Below are positions 55,782 to 63,992 of a DNA stretch of 64,000 nt, one piece after another. The notes beneath the pieces were generated by a model. That model was not told where the DNA came from and did not search any database. It saw only the letters and a program-made list of their open reading frames with translations. Both the position numbers and the translations under genes were made by a program. This DNA is from Nitrosomonadales bacterium (GTDB lineage: Bacteria > Pseudomonadota > Gammaproteobacteria > Burkholderiales > Gallionellaceae): contig JACOUM010000008.1 in NCBI GenBank assembly GCA_016177795.1, positions 83,582 to 147,581 of the forward strand, read 5' to 3'. How positions within the stretch are numbered: position 1 is the first letter of the stretch; each line of letters begins with the position of its first letter.

Positions 55782-55919
55782 TGGCCGGTGATTTGATGGG
55801 CGTTTGCTGCGTGTCTGGCCGGACGGCCGGCAGTTCTGTCAATTGCGCTCGTGTCATTTTCCTTGGCTCCCGGCCGCCCTGTTAGTATAGAATTCACGTT
55901 GACTCGTCCGCGAAGGAAA

Positions 55920-57233
55920 ATGGAAATGAAAAAACTCGCAATGCTCCCCGTACTGGCCTGCAGCCTGCTCCTGTTTTTTGCACATTCCGCCGTTGCGCAA
56001 ACCGGCAGTCCGGATTCACCTCCCCTGAATGAATTGTTGAAGCAGGAGGAGGATGTGCGTCTGGCGCGCCAATCCCTCGTTGAGGCGGAGCGTACTTACG
56101 GGGTCAATCACGTCAAGGTGGCCGAGGAGCTCGAAAAAATAGCAACGGTCTATGAAAAGCAGCGCAAATATGCCGCCGCAGAGCATTTTCTCAGGCGCGC
56201 CTTGAAAATCCGCGAAGCGGAGCTGGGAGAAAACCACATCGAAGTGGCCGCTGCGCTCAGGAACTTCGGCGAACTGTATCTCGAGCAGGGCAAGTACGCC
56301 GCTGCCGAACCGCTGTTCAAGCGCGCGCTGGTCATCGAAGCCAACACGCACGGTCCGGACAGCCTCAAACTGGTTGCGCCGCTGATCCGGCTTGCCGAGT
56401 TGCAGGAATCACAACGCCAGTTTGTCGTTGCCATCCAGTTGCATGAGCGCGCATTGGCTATCCGTGAAAAAACCCTGGGGCCAGATCATCGTGATCTGGA
56501 TGGCTCTCTGATGCAGCTGGCGCACCTTCACCAGGTCATCGGGCAATATGATGAGGCCGAGGCGTTGCTCAAGCGCGCACTGGCACTTCGCGAAAAAACC
56601 TTTGGTGCAGAAAGCAGCGCGGTAAAGGTTGCCCTGTTCAATCTGGCGCTGGTTTATCAGGTGCAGGGATTCAACGCCGAGGCCGAGGCATTGCTCAAAC
56701 GCGCGCTGATCATCGATGAAAAGGGCGGCAGTGACCAGCCTGGCGCGCTGACGCCGATTTTTTACCTGGCGAAGTTATACGAATCGCAGCATCGCTATCC
56801 CGCTGCCGAGGATATGCACAAGCGCGCGTTGGCTATCGCCGAAAAAGCTTACGGGGCGGATCATGCGGAAGTCGCCAAGGTGCTGGAGAACCTGACCGAT
56901 CTTTACAGGGGGCAGGGCAAATTCGCCGAGGCACTGCCAGTGGCAAAACGCTCTCTTGGCATCAAGGAAAAGGTTTATGGCCCGAACCAGGCTGAAGTAG
57001 CCAGATGCCTCAACAACCTGGCTTTGATACAAATCGGACTGGCGCAATATGCTGATGCGGAGCAGTCGCTGAATCGTGCTTTAAAGATTGAAGAAACCAA
57101 CTACGGCAGTGACCATCCCAATGTGGCAAAGGTGCTGGATACCTTGTCAGACCTGTATAAAAAACAGGGCAAAGCCGAGTTGTCGGTCTGGGCCGACACG
57201 CGTGCCAAACAGATCCGCCGCAATTGGCGCTAG
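55920..57233 (+). CDS. Secreted tetratricopeptide-repeat protein (kinesin-light-chain-like TPRs)
   Basis: Signal peptide; repeated YAAAEPLFKRALVIEANTHGPDS units. Confidence 0.9.
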   Translation: MEMKKLAMLPVLACSLLLFFAHSAVAQTGSPDSPPLNELLKQEEDVRLARQSLVEAERTYGVNHVKVAEELEKIATVYEKQRKYAAAEHFLRRALKIREAELGENHIEVAAALRNFGELYLEQGKYAAAEPLFKRALVIEANTHGPDSLKLVAPLIRLAELQESQRQFVVAIQLHERALAIREKTLGPDHRDLDGSLMQLAHLHQVIGQYDEAEALLKRALALREKTFGAESSAVKVALFNLALVYQVQGFNAEAEALLKRALIIDEKGGSDQPGALTPIFYLAKLYESQHRYPAAEDMHKRALAIAEKAYGADHAEVAKVLENLTDLYRGQGKFAEALPVAKRSLGIKEKVYGPNQAEVARCLNNLALIQIGLAQYADAEQSLNRALKIEETNYGSDHPNVAKVLDTLSDLYKKQGKAELSVWADTRAKQIRRNWR

Positions 57234-57504
57234 CGGACTGCTGGATATCGAACGGTGTAATGAAATGTCGTTGCACCTGGGCAGGCTGGATTTATTTTGG
57301 GGCGCTTCGGCGAGCGTTGTCATGGATGAAGGTACTTTGCATGTTGTCAATCAACAGGAAATTCTGACATGCTGCTGATGATCGACAATTATTACTGACA
57401 TTTGCCCGCTTTCGTTGCCATTCGCTATTTACCCTGAAAGCCGCTCTGCATATAGGTTTTAGCCTCGTGATCATTCGCAATTATTCGGTGACAGCCTGAA
57501 AAAA

Positions 57505-57543: not shown

Positions 57544-58857
57544 ATGCCATCTCTCACAGACACCAAAGTCAGAACAGCCAAACCTACCGAGAAGCCTTAC
57601 GTGCTTCAGGATGGCAGCGGCCTCTATCTTGAGGTACGTCCGACCGGCGCAAAATTCTGGCGCTACCGTTACTGGCTGACGCCGGAGAAAGATGGCCGCT
57701 ACACCATCGGCGAATATCCATCCGTTTCACTGTCCGATGCCCGGCGCGAGCGTGAGCGCGTTCGTGAACTCGTCAAACAGGGCCTCCATCCCACCCAGGA
57801 AAAGCAGACCGAGAAACTGCGCCAGTCGCATGAGCGCGCCAACACATTCGAAGCTATCGCACGGGAGTGGCTGGAGCGTAAGAAAGGCAAATGGTCTGCC
57901 TATTCACACAAGCAGGCAACCAATTGCATCGAGCAAAACGCCTTCCCGAAAATCGGCAAGCTGCCCATCCGCAAGGTAACGGCTGCGCATCTGCTTCACA
58001 TCCTGCAAGCCATGGAAGAACGCGGTGCAGAAACTTATGCAATGCAACTGCGTCAGTGGTGCTCGGCAATTTTCCGCCACGCGGTGGTTACCCTGCGTGC
58101 CGATGGTGATCCTGCGGCTGCGCTCAAGGGAGCATTGTCGCGCCCCCAGATCAACCACAGCAAGCCGATGTCTGCCGAGCATATCGGCGACTTCAAAGCA
58201 AAGCTCACGAAGTATGGCGGCAACCGGACTACCGTCATCGCCATGAAGTTGATGCTTTACACCTTCGTGCGTACAGCCGAATTACGCAAAGCGCCCTGGA
58301 CCGAGTTCGACATCAATGCCGCCGAATGGAAAATTCAGCCGGGTCGGATGAAGATGAAGCGCGTACATATAGTGCCGCTGCCACGTCAGGCAGTGGAGCT
58401 GCTACAAGAATTGCGGAGGATCACCGGCGCCGGCAACTGGCTGTTCCCCAACTTTCGCCGCCCGGATGATGTAATGAGCGCGACCACGATCAATCGCGCG
58501 CTCGAACACATGGGCTATCCCTCCGGCCAATGGACAGGGCACGATTTCCGGGCGACGGCCTCGACACGACTGCACGAAATGGGCTTCCACTCAGAGTGGA
58601 TCGAGCGCCAGCTTGCCCACGTCGAAGGCAACAAAACCAAGGCCGCCTACAACCATGCCGAGTACCTGCCAGAACGCAGGAACATGATGCAAGCCTGGGC
58701 GGACTGGATCGATAAAATTCCAGAAGAGATCATCGTCAACACGCAGCTTGCGCGTGAGGCAATAAACTTGCTGACTCCGGACGACTTGCCAATATCTGCT
58801 GGCTTATCCAATCCTGCACCTCTGACTCGACCCATCCGGATAAGCGCCCGAGCTTGA
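57544..58857 (+). CDS. P4-type tyrosine recombinase/integrase
   Basis: MPSLTDTKVRTAKPTEKPYVLQDGSGLYLEVRPTGAKFWRYRYW arm-binding domain; TGHDFRATASTRLHEMGF; RQLAHVEGNKTKAAYNHAEYL. Confidence 0.95.
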   Translation: MPSLTDTKVRTAKPTEKPYVLQDGSGLYLEVRPTGAKFWRYRYWLTPEKDGRYTIGEYPSVSLSDARRERERVRELVKQGLHPTQEKQTEKLRQSHERANTFEAIAREWLERKKGKWSAYSHKQATNCIEQNAFPKIGKLPIRKVTAAHLLHILQAMEERGAETYAMQLRQWCSAIFRHAVVTLRADGDPAAALKGALSRPQINHSKPMSAEHIGDFKAKLTKYGGNRTTVIAMKLMLYTFVRTAELRKAPWTEFDINAAEWKIQPGRMKMKRVHIVPLPRQAVELLQELRRITGAGNWLFPNFRRPDDVMSATTINRALEHMGYPSGQWTGHDFRATASTRLHEMGFHSEWIERQLAHVEGNKTKAAYNHAEYLPERRNMMQAWADWIDKIPEEIIVNTQLAREAINLLTPDDLPISAGLSNPAPLTRPIRISARA

Positions 58858-58960
58858 TCTGCCTCGGGAATTCACCCTTCTTGATTTTGTCGTAAATCGC
58901 CGTCGTACCAAGGCCTACCATGGCCTTGACCTGCGGAAGGCGTATCAACCGCTGGTTCAT
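58736..58960 (-). CDS. AlpA-like HTH transcriptional regulator
   Basis: RLIRLPQVKAMVGLGTTAIYDKIKKGEFPRQIKLGRLSGWVESEVQDWI. Confidence 0.88.
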   Translation of the reverse strand: MNQRLIRLPQVKAMVGLGTTAIYDKIKKGEFPRQIKLGRLSGWVESEVQDWISQQILASRPESASLLPHAQAAC

Positions 58961-59056: not shown

Positions 59057-59944
59057 ATGCGTCCTGCCGGGCCACATTTCGGATGCCATCAAATGCGGGC
59101 GGAAGTTAGCGTCACGGGCTGGACTCCGACCGCCATGCAAAAACCAACTCGAAAAAATAATAATTCCGGGCCACAGCACCTCAAGGCTTGGATGCGTGGC
59201 GACCAGCTTCCCCTCTGGCCGGAAGAAATCCGCTGCGCGCCAAACGAATTTTTACGCAGCGCGCTGTTCAACGCACGCAACCGCAATCAAAAGCGACGAT
59301 ACTTGCGGCAGGAAACATTGGCGATCATCGGCAAGGGGCGCATCACCTACACCGGCGAGGAGCTGCGGCAGGACGATGCCACGGTCTGGCTGCAACTGAT
59401 CCAGATGGCCAGCGATACCCCGTTGGGCGCGCCCGTAGAATTTACACCATACAGTTTTTGCAAGGCCGTCGGCTGGACACCTTCCGGCGAGACCTACGCC
59501 CACCTGCGCAAATGCCTCACACGCTTGCAGGCCACCGCGCTGGCTTTCTATGCCGAACGTACCAAGCACACCATCTCGCTCTCCATGATCCCGGCCTTTT
59601 GCTGGCGGGACGAGAGCACCGGCAAGCCGCTGCCGTGCTACCGGGTCAAGCTCGCCCCGGAACTGGCGGCGCTGTTTCATGGACAGCATTTCACCTACCT
59701 CCACTGGGCGCAGCGTCGGCAATTACCTGAAGGCTTGGCCACCTGGCTGCACGGCTATCTGGCCAGCCACCAGCAACCGCGCCCGCTTCCCCTCAAAGAA
59801 ATCCAGCGCGCTGCCGACCTCACCATCAGCCGATCCGACAATCTCCGCAAGGCAGTAGTCCGCGCATTGGATGAATTGCTGAAGGCCGGATTCCTCGTTT
59901 CATGGCAGATCAACGGCGGCAACATCGCTGTCGTCCGGCGCTGA
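59057..59944 (+). CDS. TrfA-like plasmid replication initiator
   Basis: ITYTGEELRQDDATVWLQLIQMASDTPLGAPVEFTPYSFCKAVGW; FTYLHWAQRRQLPEGLATWLHGYLASHQQPRPL; start site uncertain. Confidence 0.85.
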   Translation: MRPAGPHFGCHQMRAEVSVTGWTPTAMQKPTRKNNNSGPQHLKAWMRGDQLPLWPEEIRCAPNEFLRSALFNARNRNQKRRYLRQETLAIIGKGRITYTGEELRQDDATVWLQLIQMASDTPLGAPVEFTPYSFCKAVGWTPSGETYAHLRKCLTRLQATALAFYAERTKHTISLSMIPAFCWRDESTGKPLPCYRVKLAPELAALFHGQHFTYLHWAQRRQLPEGLATWLHGYLASHQQPRPLPLKEIQRAADLTISRSDNLRKAVVRALDELLKAGFLVSWQINGGNIAVVRR

Positions 59945-60029: not shown

Positions 60030-60244
60030 TTGTCGGATGAGTAGGAAAACTATTGGCGTTTGAATAGGGAAATGCCGAAAATCGTTCGATCCAGACGCAA
60101 AATTCCCGTCGAATTACTGCCACACTATAGGCGTTTGAGTAGGGAACTATTGGCGGTTGAGTAGGGAAACGCGGCTCATGACTTGGCGTATGAGTAGGGA
60201 AAAGGATGTTCCACGCAACTCGATATGGCGTTTGAGTAGGGGAG
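60030..60244 (+). repeat. Iteron array (five clear copies plus one degenerate)
   Basis: TATTGGCGTTTGAATAGGGAAA (60051), TATAGGCGTTTGAGTAGGGAAC (60126), TATTGGCGGTTGAGTAGGGAAA (60148), ACTTGGCGTATGAGTAGGGAAA (60181), ATATGGCGTTTGAGTAGGGGAG (about 60223); degenerate TGTCGGATGAGTAGGAAAA (about 60031). Confidence 0.88.
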
Positions 60245-60404
60245 TATTTTCACAAAACCAAGGCGCAGCAAGGCTTTCAGGCTGAAGGTGGCAGGTAACC
60301 TATTTAACCTTTATATAACCAGCCGGGGCGGTTCGCTATCGTTATTGCGGGTGGCTACGTCTGACGTTATCATCAGCACTTTCGAGCTAAAGTCAGCATA
60401 TTTA

Positions 60405-61349
60405 ATGTCGCGATTTCCCATCCATCAACTGCATGACACTGAGTTCGAAGACCTCGTGACGCTAATCTGTCGCCAGATACTTGGTATCAGTGTTACGTCG
60501 TTCGCACCCGGTCGCGATGGAGGGAAAGATGCAAAGTTTGAAGGTATGGCTGTCGCCTTCCCGAGTACGACCAGTCCGGCATCAGGGAAATTCATTATCC
60601 AGGCAAAGCACACCGCAAACCCTGTCGCATCATGTTCCGATCCGGAATTCGAGACGACCTTGCTGAACAAGGAAATCACCAAGATCAAGAGGCAATTCGA
60701 CGAAGGTAGGCTCACTCACTACATCCTCTTCACAAATCGCCGCAAGACTGGCGGCGCGGAAGACCGCATTCCAGATCGCATCAAAGCCGAAACCGGGGTG
60801 CAGAATGTTTGGCTTCGTGGGCTTGAAGATGTCGAGCGTGACCTGCTCCACTACCCCGGCATCGTCAAGCTCTCCGGTTTGGACAAGCTCCGCTCACCCA
60901 TCCAATTCGTGCCGGACGACATTCGCGACGTGATTGTGGCCTTCCACAAACATCGTAGCGCTATAGCAACCGCATTCGACAGTCAGCACGATTTTCGAGA
61001 CTACCCAGGCTTGCCACGAAAGAATGAGATCAATGGCCTGACCGATACCTACTTCAATGAATACATCCTTGCCGATTCAGAGCCGCGATTCCCGGAAATC
61101 CGCCGCTTTCTCCAGAATCCTCGCAACTGGGAGTTTGCAGAGCAATACCACGCCACTGCGAATGAACTGAAAGGCCAGATCATTACCCACCGGGAACAGT
61201 TCATCACCTTTGATGAAGCCTTGGAGCACGTTTATCAGCTCATGCATGAGCGTAGCTCAGAACTACAGTCCGCGCCGCGCCGTATTTTGACGAAGGTTTT
61301 TATTCACTACATGTATGTGAACTGCGATATCGGAGAAAAAGGTTCATGA
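60405..61349 (+). CDS. ABC-3C-type system protein with N-terminal Mrr/PD-(D/E)xK-like domain
   Basis: HDTEFEDLVTLICRQILG...FAPGRDGGKDAKFEG...GKFIIQAKHT. Confidence 0.75.
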   Translation: MSRFPIHQLHDTEFEDLVTLICRQILGISVTSFAPGRDGGKDAKFEGMAVAFPSTTSPASGKFIIQAKHTANPVASCSDPEFETTLLNKEITKIKRQFDEGRLTHYILFTNRRKTGGAEDRIPDRIKAETGVQNVWLRGLEDVERDLLHYPGIVKLSGLDKLRSPIQFVPDDIRDVIVAFHKHRSAIATAFDSQHDFRDYPGLPRKNEINGLTDTYFNEYILADSEPRFPEIRRFLQNPRNWEFAEQYHATANELKGQIITHREQFITFDEALEHVYQLMHERSSELQSAPRRILTKVFIHYMYVNCDIGEKGS

Positions 61350-61594
61350 TCCGCGCAACCAAGCATCTCAACCTGAATACTTGCGTTCTCCGCGCTTCCA
61401 GCCGTTTACTCGCCAAGCTACAGGCCGAGCGCCTGTGCGGTTATGAGGCACTGCGTAGCTCGCTGATGGGGCTTGATCCCGATGCGGACATTCTATTTCT
61501 TCCTACTATCCATTTTCTGTTTCTTCTCGGCCGAGTGAATTATCACGCCCAGACGGATTCATTCGAATACATCCAGCCGGGGAGTGGCGTATGA
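61346..61594 (+). CDS. ABC-3C-type small middle component
   Basis: MIRATKHLNLNTCVLRASSRLLAKLQAERLCGYEALRSSL...FLPTIHFLFLLGRVNY; ATGA overlaps on both sides. Confidence 0.7.
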   Translation: MIRATKHLNLNTCVLRASSRLLAKLQAERLCGYEALRSSLMGLDPDADILFLPTIHFLFLLGRVNYHAQTDSFEYIQPGSGV

Positions 61595-63381
61595 AACTGA
61601 GCCACCTCTACACCAACAAGCCCGACATTTTTTCGCCCATTCGTTTTCGTGAGGGACTGAATGTCATCCTCGCCCGTATCCAGCATCCGACAGACCACGA
61701 AAAAATCTCGCACAATCTTGGCAAGTCGCTTCTCATTGATGTCATTGATTTCTGCTTGCTGAAGGAAGTCGGCACGAATGGGCACTTCCTCAAGACCCGT
61801 GAAGACTTGTTCGGTGAATTGGTTTTCTTTCTGGAGCTTCGCCTCCACGGTGGCGGATTTGTAACCGTCCGTCGCCCCGTACGCGAAGCTACAAGCATTG
61901 CCTTTAAGCGGCATGCCGAGCCACACCAGGATTTTACCGCGCTACCCAATGAGCAGTGGGATCACGTTGATGTCTCACTGAGTGCGTCAGTGAAGCTGCT
62001 CGATAGTTATCTTAACCTCACCGCGATTAAGCCGTGGCCCTATCGTACAGGCGTCAGCTACTTCATGCGCAGGCAAGCAGACTACAGCGATGAATTCCGC
62101 CTCTCCAAATTCAAAGGACGCGACATCAATTGGAAGCCTTACGTCGCCAAAGTTCTTGGTTTCGACGACAACCTGCTTACGCAAAAATACGAAGCTGATA
62201 CCGAGCATGGTCGCATTGAGACCAAGCGCAATGAGCTTCAAGCCGAGGTTAGTGTCAAAGTTTCAGACTACGAAAAACTCCGGGCGAGTATTGCAGTGAA
62301 GCGAGATGAGGTAGAGCGTAAGGTTTCTTCTATTGATCAATTCGATTTCCACCAACAGGAAAGTGCGCTTACTCAAGAACTCGCCGATCAGGTTGAACAG
62401 GAAATTGCTACCACAAACGAACTCCTCTATTCAGCCCGGTTCGATCTCGCACAGATAGAGCGTGGCCTGCAGGACGAAATTAAATTTGATCTTACCGATG
62501 TGAAGCGCGTTTTCTCCGAGGCGCAGATAACTTTTCCAGACCAGCTCGCTCGCGATTACACTGACCTGGTCGAGTTCAACCGCCGCATTCTCACGGAGCG
62601 CCGCACCCACCTGCTAAGTCGAGCAGAAAAACTCCGGAGTGAAATTGCCCACCTGGAAGAATCCAATACCGCCAGCTCTGAAAAGCGCCGAAGCATTCTC
62701 CAGATTCTGGGCGGCACTGACAGCCTGAAAAAATTTAAAGACCTTCAGCGCCAGCTCGATAATGATCGCACCAACCTCGCGCTCATGGAGGAAAAGGCTT
62801 CCAGGCTAAAAGCGATCCGCGATCTCAATGATGATCTTCGACGCACCAAGGCACAATGTGATGAACTCACTGTTGCCATAGAGAAGCTCGTCAGTAATAG
62901 CTCGCTGCGGTTCAGCGAAATCCAAAAAACCTTCAGTCACATTGTCAAAGAAGTCCTCCACCGTAGCGCGGTTCTTTATGTCCGGCAAAATGATAGCGGC
63001 AATTTGGATTTTCATGCCGAGTTCACCGATACCGATACCGATGCCCCTACCCAGGAACGACGCGGGACGAGTTTCCGGCAGGTTCTCTGCATCGCTTTTG
63101 ATCTTGCAGTCCTCACCAACTATGCGCGTGAACCATTCTTTCACTTCGTTTACCACGACGGTGGCCTAGAGCGTCTGGAGAGCAAACGAAAACTTGCGCT
63201 GTTCCAAGTCATCCGCCATACCTGCGAAGAATACGGTATCCAATACCTCATCAGCACCCTCGACGAAGACCTCCCGATCGCCGAAGATACCTCTGGCCTA
63301 TGCCCAAAATTTGAAGAAATCGTTCTCGAACTTCATGACGGTGGCGATGATGGTAGGCTGTTCAAGGTGGGAAGGTTTTGA
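61591..63381 (+). CDS. SMC/RecF-like ATPase with DUF2326-type C-terminus (ABC-3C ATPase)
   Basis: GLNVILARIQHPTDHEKISHNLGKSLLIDVIDFCLL Walker A region; central coiled coil; C-terminal DLAVLTNYAREPFFHFVYHDGGLERLESKRKLALFQVI. Confidence 0.82.
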   Translation: MKLSHLYTNKPDIFSPIRFREGLNVILARIQHPTDHEKISHNLGKSLLIDVIDFCLLKEVGTNGHFLKTREDLFGELVFFLELRLHGGGFVTVRRPVREATSIAFKRHAEPHQDFTALPNEQWDHVDVSLSASVKLLDSYLNLTAIKPWPYRTGVSYFMRRQADYSDEFRLSKFKGRDINWKPYVAKVLGFDDNLLTQKYEADTEHGRIETKRNELQAEVSVKVSDYEKLRASIAVKRDEVERKVSSIDQFDFHQQESALTQELADQVEQEIATTNELLYSARFDLAQIERGLQDEIKFDLTDVKRVFSEAQITFPDQLARDYTDLVEFNRRILTERRTHLLSRAEKLRSEIAHLEESNTASSEKRRSILQILGGTDSLKKFKDLQRQLDNDRTNLALMEEKASRLKAIRDLNDDLRRTKAQCDELTVAIEKLVSNSSLRFSEIQKTFSHIVKEVLHRSAVLYVRQNDSGNLDFHAEFTDTDTDAPTQERRGTSFRQVLCIAFDLAVLTNYAREPFFHFVYHDGGLERLESKRKLALFQVIRHTCEEYGIQYLISTLDEDLPIAEDTSGLCPKFEEIVLELHDGGDDGRLFKVGRF

Positions 63382-63418: not shown

Positions 63419-63718
63419 TCACATGCGTGATTGCAAACTAGGCATCGGCGGCTCCTCCACCCTCCCCAGCCACCCCCACAAAACCTTAACCGCCAACCAA
63501 TAAGCATAAGCTGTCGCCGGTGCCATATCCCGATGATCCTTCCAGAACGCGATCACCTGCCGCTTGCCGATTTGCTCGATGCCGGTCAGCCGGAATTTCG
63601 CCTGCATCCAACTGACCATAATTACCAGCCGATCCACCTGCTGCCGCCGGTTGGTTTTTCCGCCATGCGCGACATATACATGCGCACGGCGGCGAACCTG
63701 TTCAGCCAAGGTAGGCAT
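63419..63718 (-). CDS. Tyrosine recombinase SAM-like N-terminal domain protein
   Basis: QQVDRLVIMVSWMQAKFRLTGIEQIGKRQVIAFWKDHRDMAPATAYAYWLAVKVLWGWLG. Confidence 0.55.
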   Translation of the reverse strand: MPTLAEQVRRRAHVYVAHGGKTNRRQQVDRLVIMVSWMQAKFRLTGIEQIGKRQVIAFWKDHRDMAPATAYAYWLAVKVLWGWLGRVEEPPMPSLQSRM

Positions 63719-63992
63719 TGGTTACCTCAATGCGGCTGTGGCCCAGCTCCTGGGCAATCCGACCGCGCGCTGAAGCGTCACGTTGCTTTGCCTCGTCAAT
63801 GTCAATTCTCAACTCTTGGGCTAGCCAAGTCAGGTGGGCCTGACCATGACCGATATTGACGGCAACCGGGCATTCTTCAAAAACCAATTCCAAGTATCGT
63901 CGCTGAGCGAATGCATGGCGCTCACGATGAAAACGGATGCCATGTTGCGTCGACATACGGTAGCAATACTGCCGGAATTCACGATAGTTCAT
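63702..63992 (-). CDS. Tyrosine recombinase C-terminal (catalytic) fragment or partial gene
   Basis: FHRERHAFAQRRYLELV...ARGRIAQELGHSRIEVTNAYLG (HxxR...GH...Y); may continue beyond the window edge. Confidence 0.6.
   Translation of the reverse strand: MNYREFRQYCYRMSTQHGIRFHRERHAFAQRRYLELVFEECPVAVNIGHGQAHLTWLAQELRIDIDEAKQRDASARGRIAQELGHSRIEVTNAYLG

Follow-up and report, generated by a model that had tools for sequence, protein, structure and literature searches.

A candidate ABC-three-component defence operon carried on a TrfA/iteron element at trpG

What do three overlapping genes on an integrated element of a Nitrosomonadales bacterium encode, and do they serve in defence? The first-pass annotation of the 64,000-nucleotide stretch that we analysed (the window) had read them as a candidate anti-phage operon of the ABC-three-component (ABC-3C) type, a group of systems reportedly described by Krishnan et al. 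in 2020. We examined the proteins and their predicted folds, the element that carries them, and their relatives in other genomes.

The three genes and their conserved motifs

The operon lies on the forward strand and comprises gene A (60405–61349, 314 residues), the effector; gene B (61346–61594, 82 residues), the middle component; and gene C (61591–63381, 596 residues), a coiled-coil ABC ATPase. The 4-nt ATGA overlaps between A and B (61346–61349) and between B and C (61591–61594) are exactly where they had been placed. The best relative, a 91%-identical locus from an environmental proteobacterial bin, shares all three ORFs and the two 4-nt overlaps with the operon, and its DNA similarity to the window runs from 37 nt upstream of the ATG of A to the stop codon of C. 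These limits indicate that the operon was transferred as a single unit, without its present neighbours. The dN/dS values against this locus are 0.10 for A, 0.18 for B and 0.09 for C; all three are genuine genes under purifying selection. Scans of the operon region for a sigma-70-like promoter or a terminator were uninformative, with no prominent candidate.

The N-terminal domain of A (approximately residues 1–150, 60405–60860) carries E15, G36xDGGxD42 and Q66-A-K68-H69, and includes both of the motifs noted earlier, GRDGGKDAKF and IIQAKH. Across 68 A proteins, F14, E15, G36, D38, G39, G40, D42, Q66, A67, K68 and H69 are near-invariant, a set characteristic of an Mrr-type PD-(D/E)xK site, and the catalytic-type positions are kept in 62–67 of the 68. 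The Pfam Mrr_cat profile is matched by 40 of these 68 relatives at E ≤ 0.01, while A itself scores below the cut-off (E 0.0078, 16.8 bits against 21). The earlier call of an Mrr-like nuclease effector is therefore upheld by conserved motifs, relatives and fold, and not by A's own profile match.

The C-terminal half of A (residues 164–310, 60894–61334) is a helical CTD12 domain, presumed to serve in docking (Pfam, 3.3e-26, 92.9 bits against a cut-off of 25). It is found in 68/68 relatives, including those with other effectors or none. Three loci (L030, L053 and L073) place an HNH domain instead of the PD-(D/E)xK domain on the same CTD12, and in a plasmid homologue (L006, 3173–3760) gene A consists of CTD12 and a short N-terminus, without a nuclease domain; its effector may have been lost or be encoded separately. 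The four group as one clade, L006 on a long branch, which suggests a single nuclease replacement event. That one nuclease has been exchanged for another while CTD12 stayed the same points to DNA cleavage as the output of the system and to CTD12 as the dock.

The same exchange bears on a restriction-like reading, in which A would be a type IV (Mrr-like) enzyme that senses modified or marked DNA and cleaves it directly, assisted by C acting as a translocase or clamp. The Mrr-type motifs GxDGGxD and QAK in A are what such an enzyme would have; however, no modified-base-binding domain was identified in A, whose C-terminal half is taken up by CTD12, and the three HNH relatives retain CTD12, B and C, so that recognition more likely resides in B or C. 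We regard direct restriction as improbable.

B was identified as the Pfam middle component MC8 (9.4e-13, 48.5 bits against a cut-off of 25) and C as DUF2326 (6.2e-21, 75 bits against 28.7), matching the middle component and the DUF2326-like ATPase of the first-pass annotation. Since CTD12, MC8 and DUF2326 all exceed their curated cut-offs, its ABC-3C assignment stands, and PADLOC, one of the checks it had proposed, places C in the candidate defence family PDC-M68B (1.6e-52, residues 3–591). The PADLOC LmuB profile also matches C (2.5e-5, residues 43–454), weakly by comparison. A matches the N-terminus of PDC-S73; the PADLOC profile search listed no PDC-M68A match for A, and 11 of its 68 relatives have one.

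C has an atypical Walker A motif, HNLGKS (residues 41–46, 61711–61728), of which H41, G44 and K45 (HNLGK[ST]) are invariant in 70/70 relatives. The Walker B-like motif HDGxxE (residues 522–527, 63154–63171) is equally constant at D523, G524 and E527 (70/70); here Asp523 is followed by Gly524, replacing the usual adjacent catalytic Glu.

When PDB sequences were searched with profiles of the three proteins A, B and C, no meaningful match emerged, so fold comparison was needed. AF2 models of A and C (pLDDT 89 and 87) were compared with known structures using Foldseek. The model of C was most similar to YydD (2e-23), followed by Lamassu LmuB (1.9e-14 to 1e-11; 9uxh_F at 1.9e-14, also 9hqx and 9hqu) and then Rad50 and SMC proteins; the LmuB entries bear the titles 'nuclease sequestration state' and 'bound to DNA duplex'. 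The best match for A was YydB (1.4e-3), which is the companion chain of YydD in entry 9a6c, followed by Avs4 (4.4e-3). The YydB match is weak alone; that both partners independently point to one crosslinked complex is the stronger indication from the models.

A trpG-targeting element with an exchangeable slot

The operon had been described as lying next to replication and integration genes on an integrated element, and this neighbourhood is borne out. The attL core ATGCTGCTGATGATCGACAATTA (57369–57391, forward strand) is identical to the first 23 nt of trpG and recurs elsewhere in this genome, on contig C9, at the start of the intact trpG, which is preceded by a matching arm-type site. In the window, the attL core is followed by a tyrosine integrase (57544–58857, forward; Pfam Phage_int_M, Arm-DNA-bind_3 and Phage_integrase), an AlpA-type excisionase or regulator (58736–58960, reverse; Phage_AlpA, 1.8e-16), a TrfA-type replication initiator (59057–59944, forward; TrfA, 2.5e-42) and five iteron copies of GGCGTTTGAGTAGGGAA (60055–60248, forward; direct repeats D1/D2). 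Beyond the operon, the backbone continues with a 99-aa ORF and the C-terminal part of a second integrase (63419–63992, reverse), which are 96% and 55% identical to their counterparts in a related element (L115).

This second integrase gene is split: its C-terminal part lies at the end of contig C4, which is the window end, and its N-terminal part at the end of C9, with approximately 140 nt missing. C9 also carries HmaABC beside the intact trpG, with AbiLi/AbiLii-like and PDC-S64-like genes inside (83757–104534; L103, L104). A complete element of approximately 34 kb is found on one contig of a genome from another genus of the same family (G105, C7:114001–150000; L115, L124). Its order is trpE side, integrase, trfA, iterons, slot, second integrase, serine recombinase, two RepB/ParB-type partition proteins, HmaABC with AbiL-like genes, an SLFN/AlbA protein and trpG, and its DNA is 89–91% identical to the window backbone and 87–96% to C9, bar one short stretch of 83%. 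Each host's own trpG variant is present at both ends of its element. Taken with the one-contig copy, the split integrase places HmaABC and AbiL at the far end of an element of at least 27 kb; the operon is cargo on an island at trpG.

Directly left of attL in the window is a TPR gene (55851–57233), which in two relatives is not beside trpG; in G105, trpE lies on this side. The chromosome left of the window attL seems to have been rearranged. We dropped a reading of this attL as an unrelated secondary site, prompted by the TPR genes of the relatives, because the G105 element reaches trpG on one contig and the second integrase is split across C4 and C9.

We compared the slot beside the iterons in four element copies whose TrfA proteins are at least 82% identical; the iteron motif is kept at the same place in all four (the window, L115, L116 and L101). 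The slot holds the ABC-3C operon in the window and IetAS in G056 (L101, C104), where the IetS ORF is short, the contig small and trfA interrupted by an in-frame stop. In G105 it holds SIR2-HerA, a TPR protein with a PDC-S73-like N-terminus and PDC-M19 genes, and in G080 (L116, C132:2–2533) a large DrmD/BrxH-like helicase ORF truncated where the contig ends. The remainder of this G080 contig appears different, with other integrases. A different defence-type gene set therefore occupies the slot in 3/3 of the other related copies found, a small sample (n = 4 with the window). These copies may represent an undescribed family of TrfA/iteron elements that integrate at the 5' end of trpG, with a slot between iterons and second integrase in which each host has its own defence system, and with Hma and an embedded AbiL at the far end where that end is readable; we are evenly divided on this proposal. 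The trpG element with its swappable slot is a more unusual observation than the operon itself, and the interval between the trfA iterons and the second integrase is a natural place to seek further defence systems.

Relatives, mobility and the maintenance alternative

Searching GTDB genomes with a profile of C yielded 182 relatives, of which 80 loci were kept, nearly all in the order A-B-C. They derive from Pseudomonadota, Verrucomicrobiota, Planctomycetota, Acidobacteriota, Actinomycetota, Chloroflexota, Myxococcota and Nitrospirota, and from one Peribacteria and one Woesearchaeota bin. Phyla are intermixed in the tree, to which contaminated bins could contribute. The operon is absent from 24 genomes of the same genus, homologues occur on 45 plasmids (29 predicted to be conjugative), and none of 50,697 phage records holds an ATPase homologue. 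Together, these patterns fit horizontal transfer of the operon. The homologous plasmid operons are named by NCBI as 'ABC-three component system protein / middle component 8 / DUF2326'. Numerous homologues lie on chromosomes, some adjoining restriction-modification genes, and type I restriction genes are the most often matched families in the flanks of relatives. Four near-identical ABC-3C loci (L044, L047, L049 and L050) lie on different contigs of one Gilliamella assembly (wkB308); they may reflect an element present in several copies or an artefact of the assembly.

The Rad50-type fold of C also invites a housekeeping reading, in which the genes would form a DNA repair module for Mre11-Rad50-like end processing with no immune role. 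Sporadic occurrence within the genus, a tree that crosses phyla, carriage on mobile elements and effector swaps all speak against such a module, and we consider it very improbable.

The plasmid homologues and the lack of phage ones lend more weight to a role in element maintenance or competition between plasmids. The nuclease would then strike rival plasmids or plasmid-free segregants and stabilise the TrfA element, rather than act against phages. The operon directly adjoins the TrfA iterons, and the Lamassu system DdmABC targets both phages and plasmids (PMC12409362). However, in other copies of this backbone the slot is filled by unrelated defence-type genes, so the operon is dispensable for maintenance of the element, and many homologues lie on chromosomes, some beside restriction-modification genes. 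On balance we find maintenance or competition rather unlikely. Carriage of homologues on conjugative plasmids implies that the system does not simply exclude all plasmids.

Proposed mechanism and comparison with known systems

We consider it likely that the operon encodes an ABC-3C (MC8/CTD12/DUF2326) defence complex that works like Lamassu, with phage or plasmid as its target. The proposal draws on the gene identities, the active-site and ATPase motifs, the effector swap on a constant CTD12, the predicted folds (which relate C to LmuB and Rad50, and both A and C to the crosslinked pair YydB-YydD), purifying selection, and carriage on a defence-rich mobile element. In Lamassu, the effector freed on activation forms a tetramer that turns on the nuclease (PMC12409362, addendum), and sensing of DNA ends or hairpins has been proposed (PMC12904381). 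C, as a short Rad50/LmuB-like ATPase, would dimerise, bind ATP and engage DNA that is abnormal or foreign, for example ends, hairpins or intermediates of replication. Through B and its own CTD12, A would be tethered to C, with its PD-(D/E)xK nuclease kept inactive. Engagement of DNA by C would then release or re-oligomerise A, which would cut DNA, stop phage or plasmid replication and probably harm the cell. Complex formation here, the trigger, the release of A, the DNA substrate and protection are the steps that we infer. LmuB has an E-to-Q change after the Walker B Asp and probably hydrolyses ATP slowly, if at all (PMC10586767); by analogy, the HDG of C may point to ATP-gated, slow or one-shot activation.

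MC8/DUF2326 ABC-3C systems are spread over many phyla and plasmids. No experiment on any of them was found in the literature searched, in keeping with the earlier remark that data on this configuration are sparse. The window copy combines intact conserved motifs with a clear structural link to Lamassu, which makes it a suitable case for asking whether the sequester-and-release logic of Lamassu extends to the DUF2326 branch.

We compared the operon with known systems. Its closest structural counterpart is the Bacillus subtilis YydB-YydD pair (PDB 9a6c, a crosslinking-MS model), the best match of both A and C, but a PDB sequence search gave no significant match between it and the window proteins; the literature searched gave no biological role for the pair. 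C shares the ABC head and coiled coil of Rad50/SbcC, whereas its coiled coil is short, its sequence has no CxxC zinc-hook motif, and a PD-(D/E)xK protein takes the place of Mre11 as its partner.

With Lamassu/DdmABC (LmuA-LmuC-LmuB), the operon shares three components with a nuclease effector, a short Rad50-like ATPase with the LmuB fold (1.9e-14) and a Walker B without the catalytic Glu, replaced in 70/70 relatives of C. The differences are a Walker B of HDG against the E-to-Q change reported for LmuB, an Mrr-like effector against the Cap4 nuclease of Lamassu, and only a weak LmuB profile match, with none to LmuA or LmuC at E ≤ 1 when PADLOC profiles were searched against the window proteins. 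The ATPase matches PDC-M68B over its length, but A falls below the reach of PDC-M68A and PDC-M68 is itself an unvalidated candidate, as are most PADLOC PDC systems (PMC12988326). The three-gene ABC-3C format of effector-CTD, small middle component and DUF2326-type coiled-coil ABC ATPase is present throughout, with an N-terminal nuclease domain on the effector and the same order and overlaps in relatives; we saw no substantial difference. Judged by its domains, membership of the MC8/CTD12 branch of ABC-3C, equivalent to the PADLOC candidate PDC-M68, is well supported. Since, of the strict Lamassu profiles, LmuB is matched weakly and LmuA and LmuC not at all, we file the operon as ABC-3C/PDC-M68, with a probable Lamassu-like mode of working.
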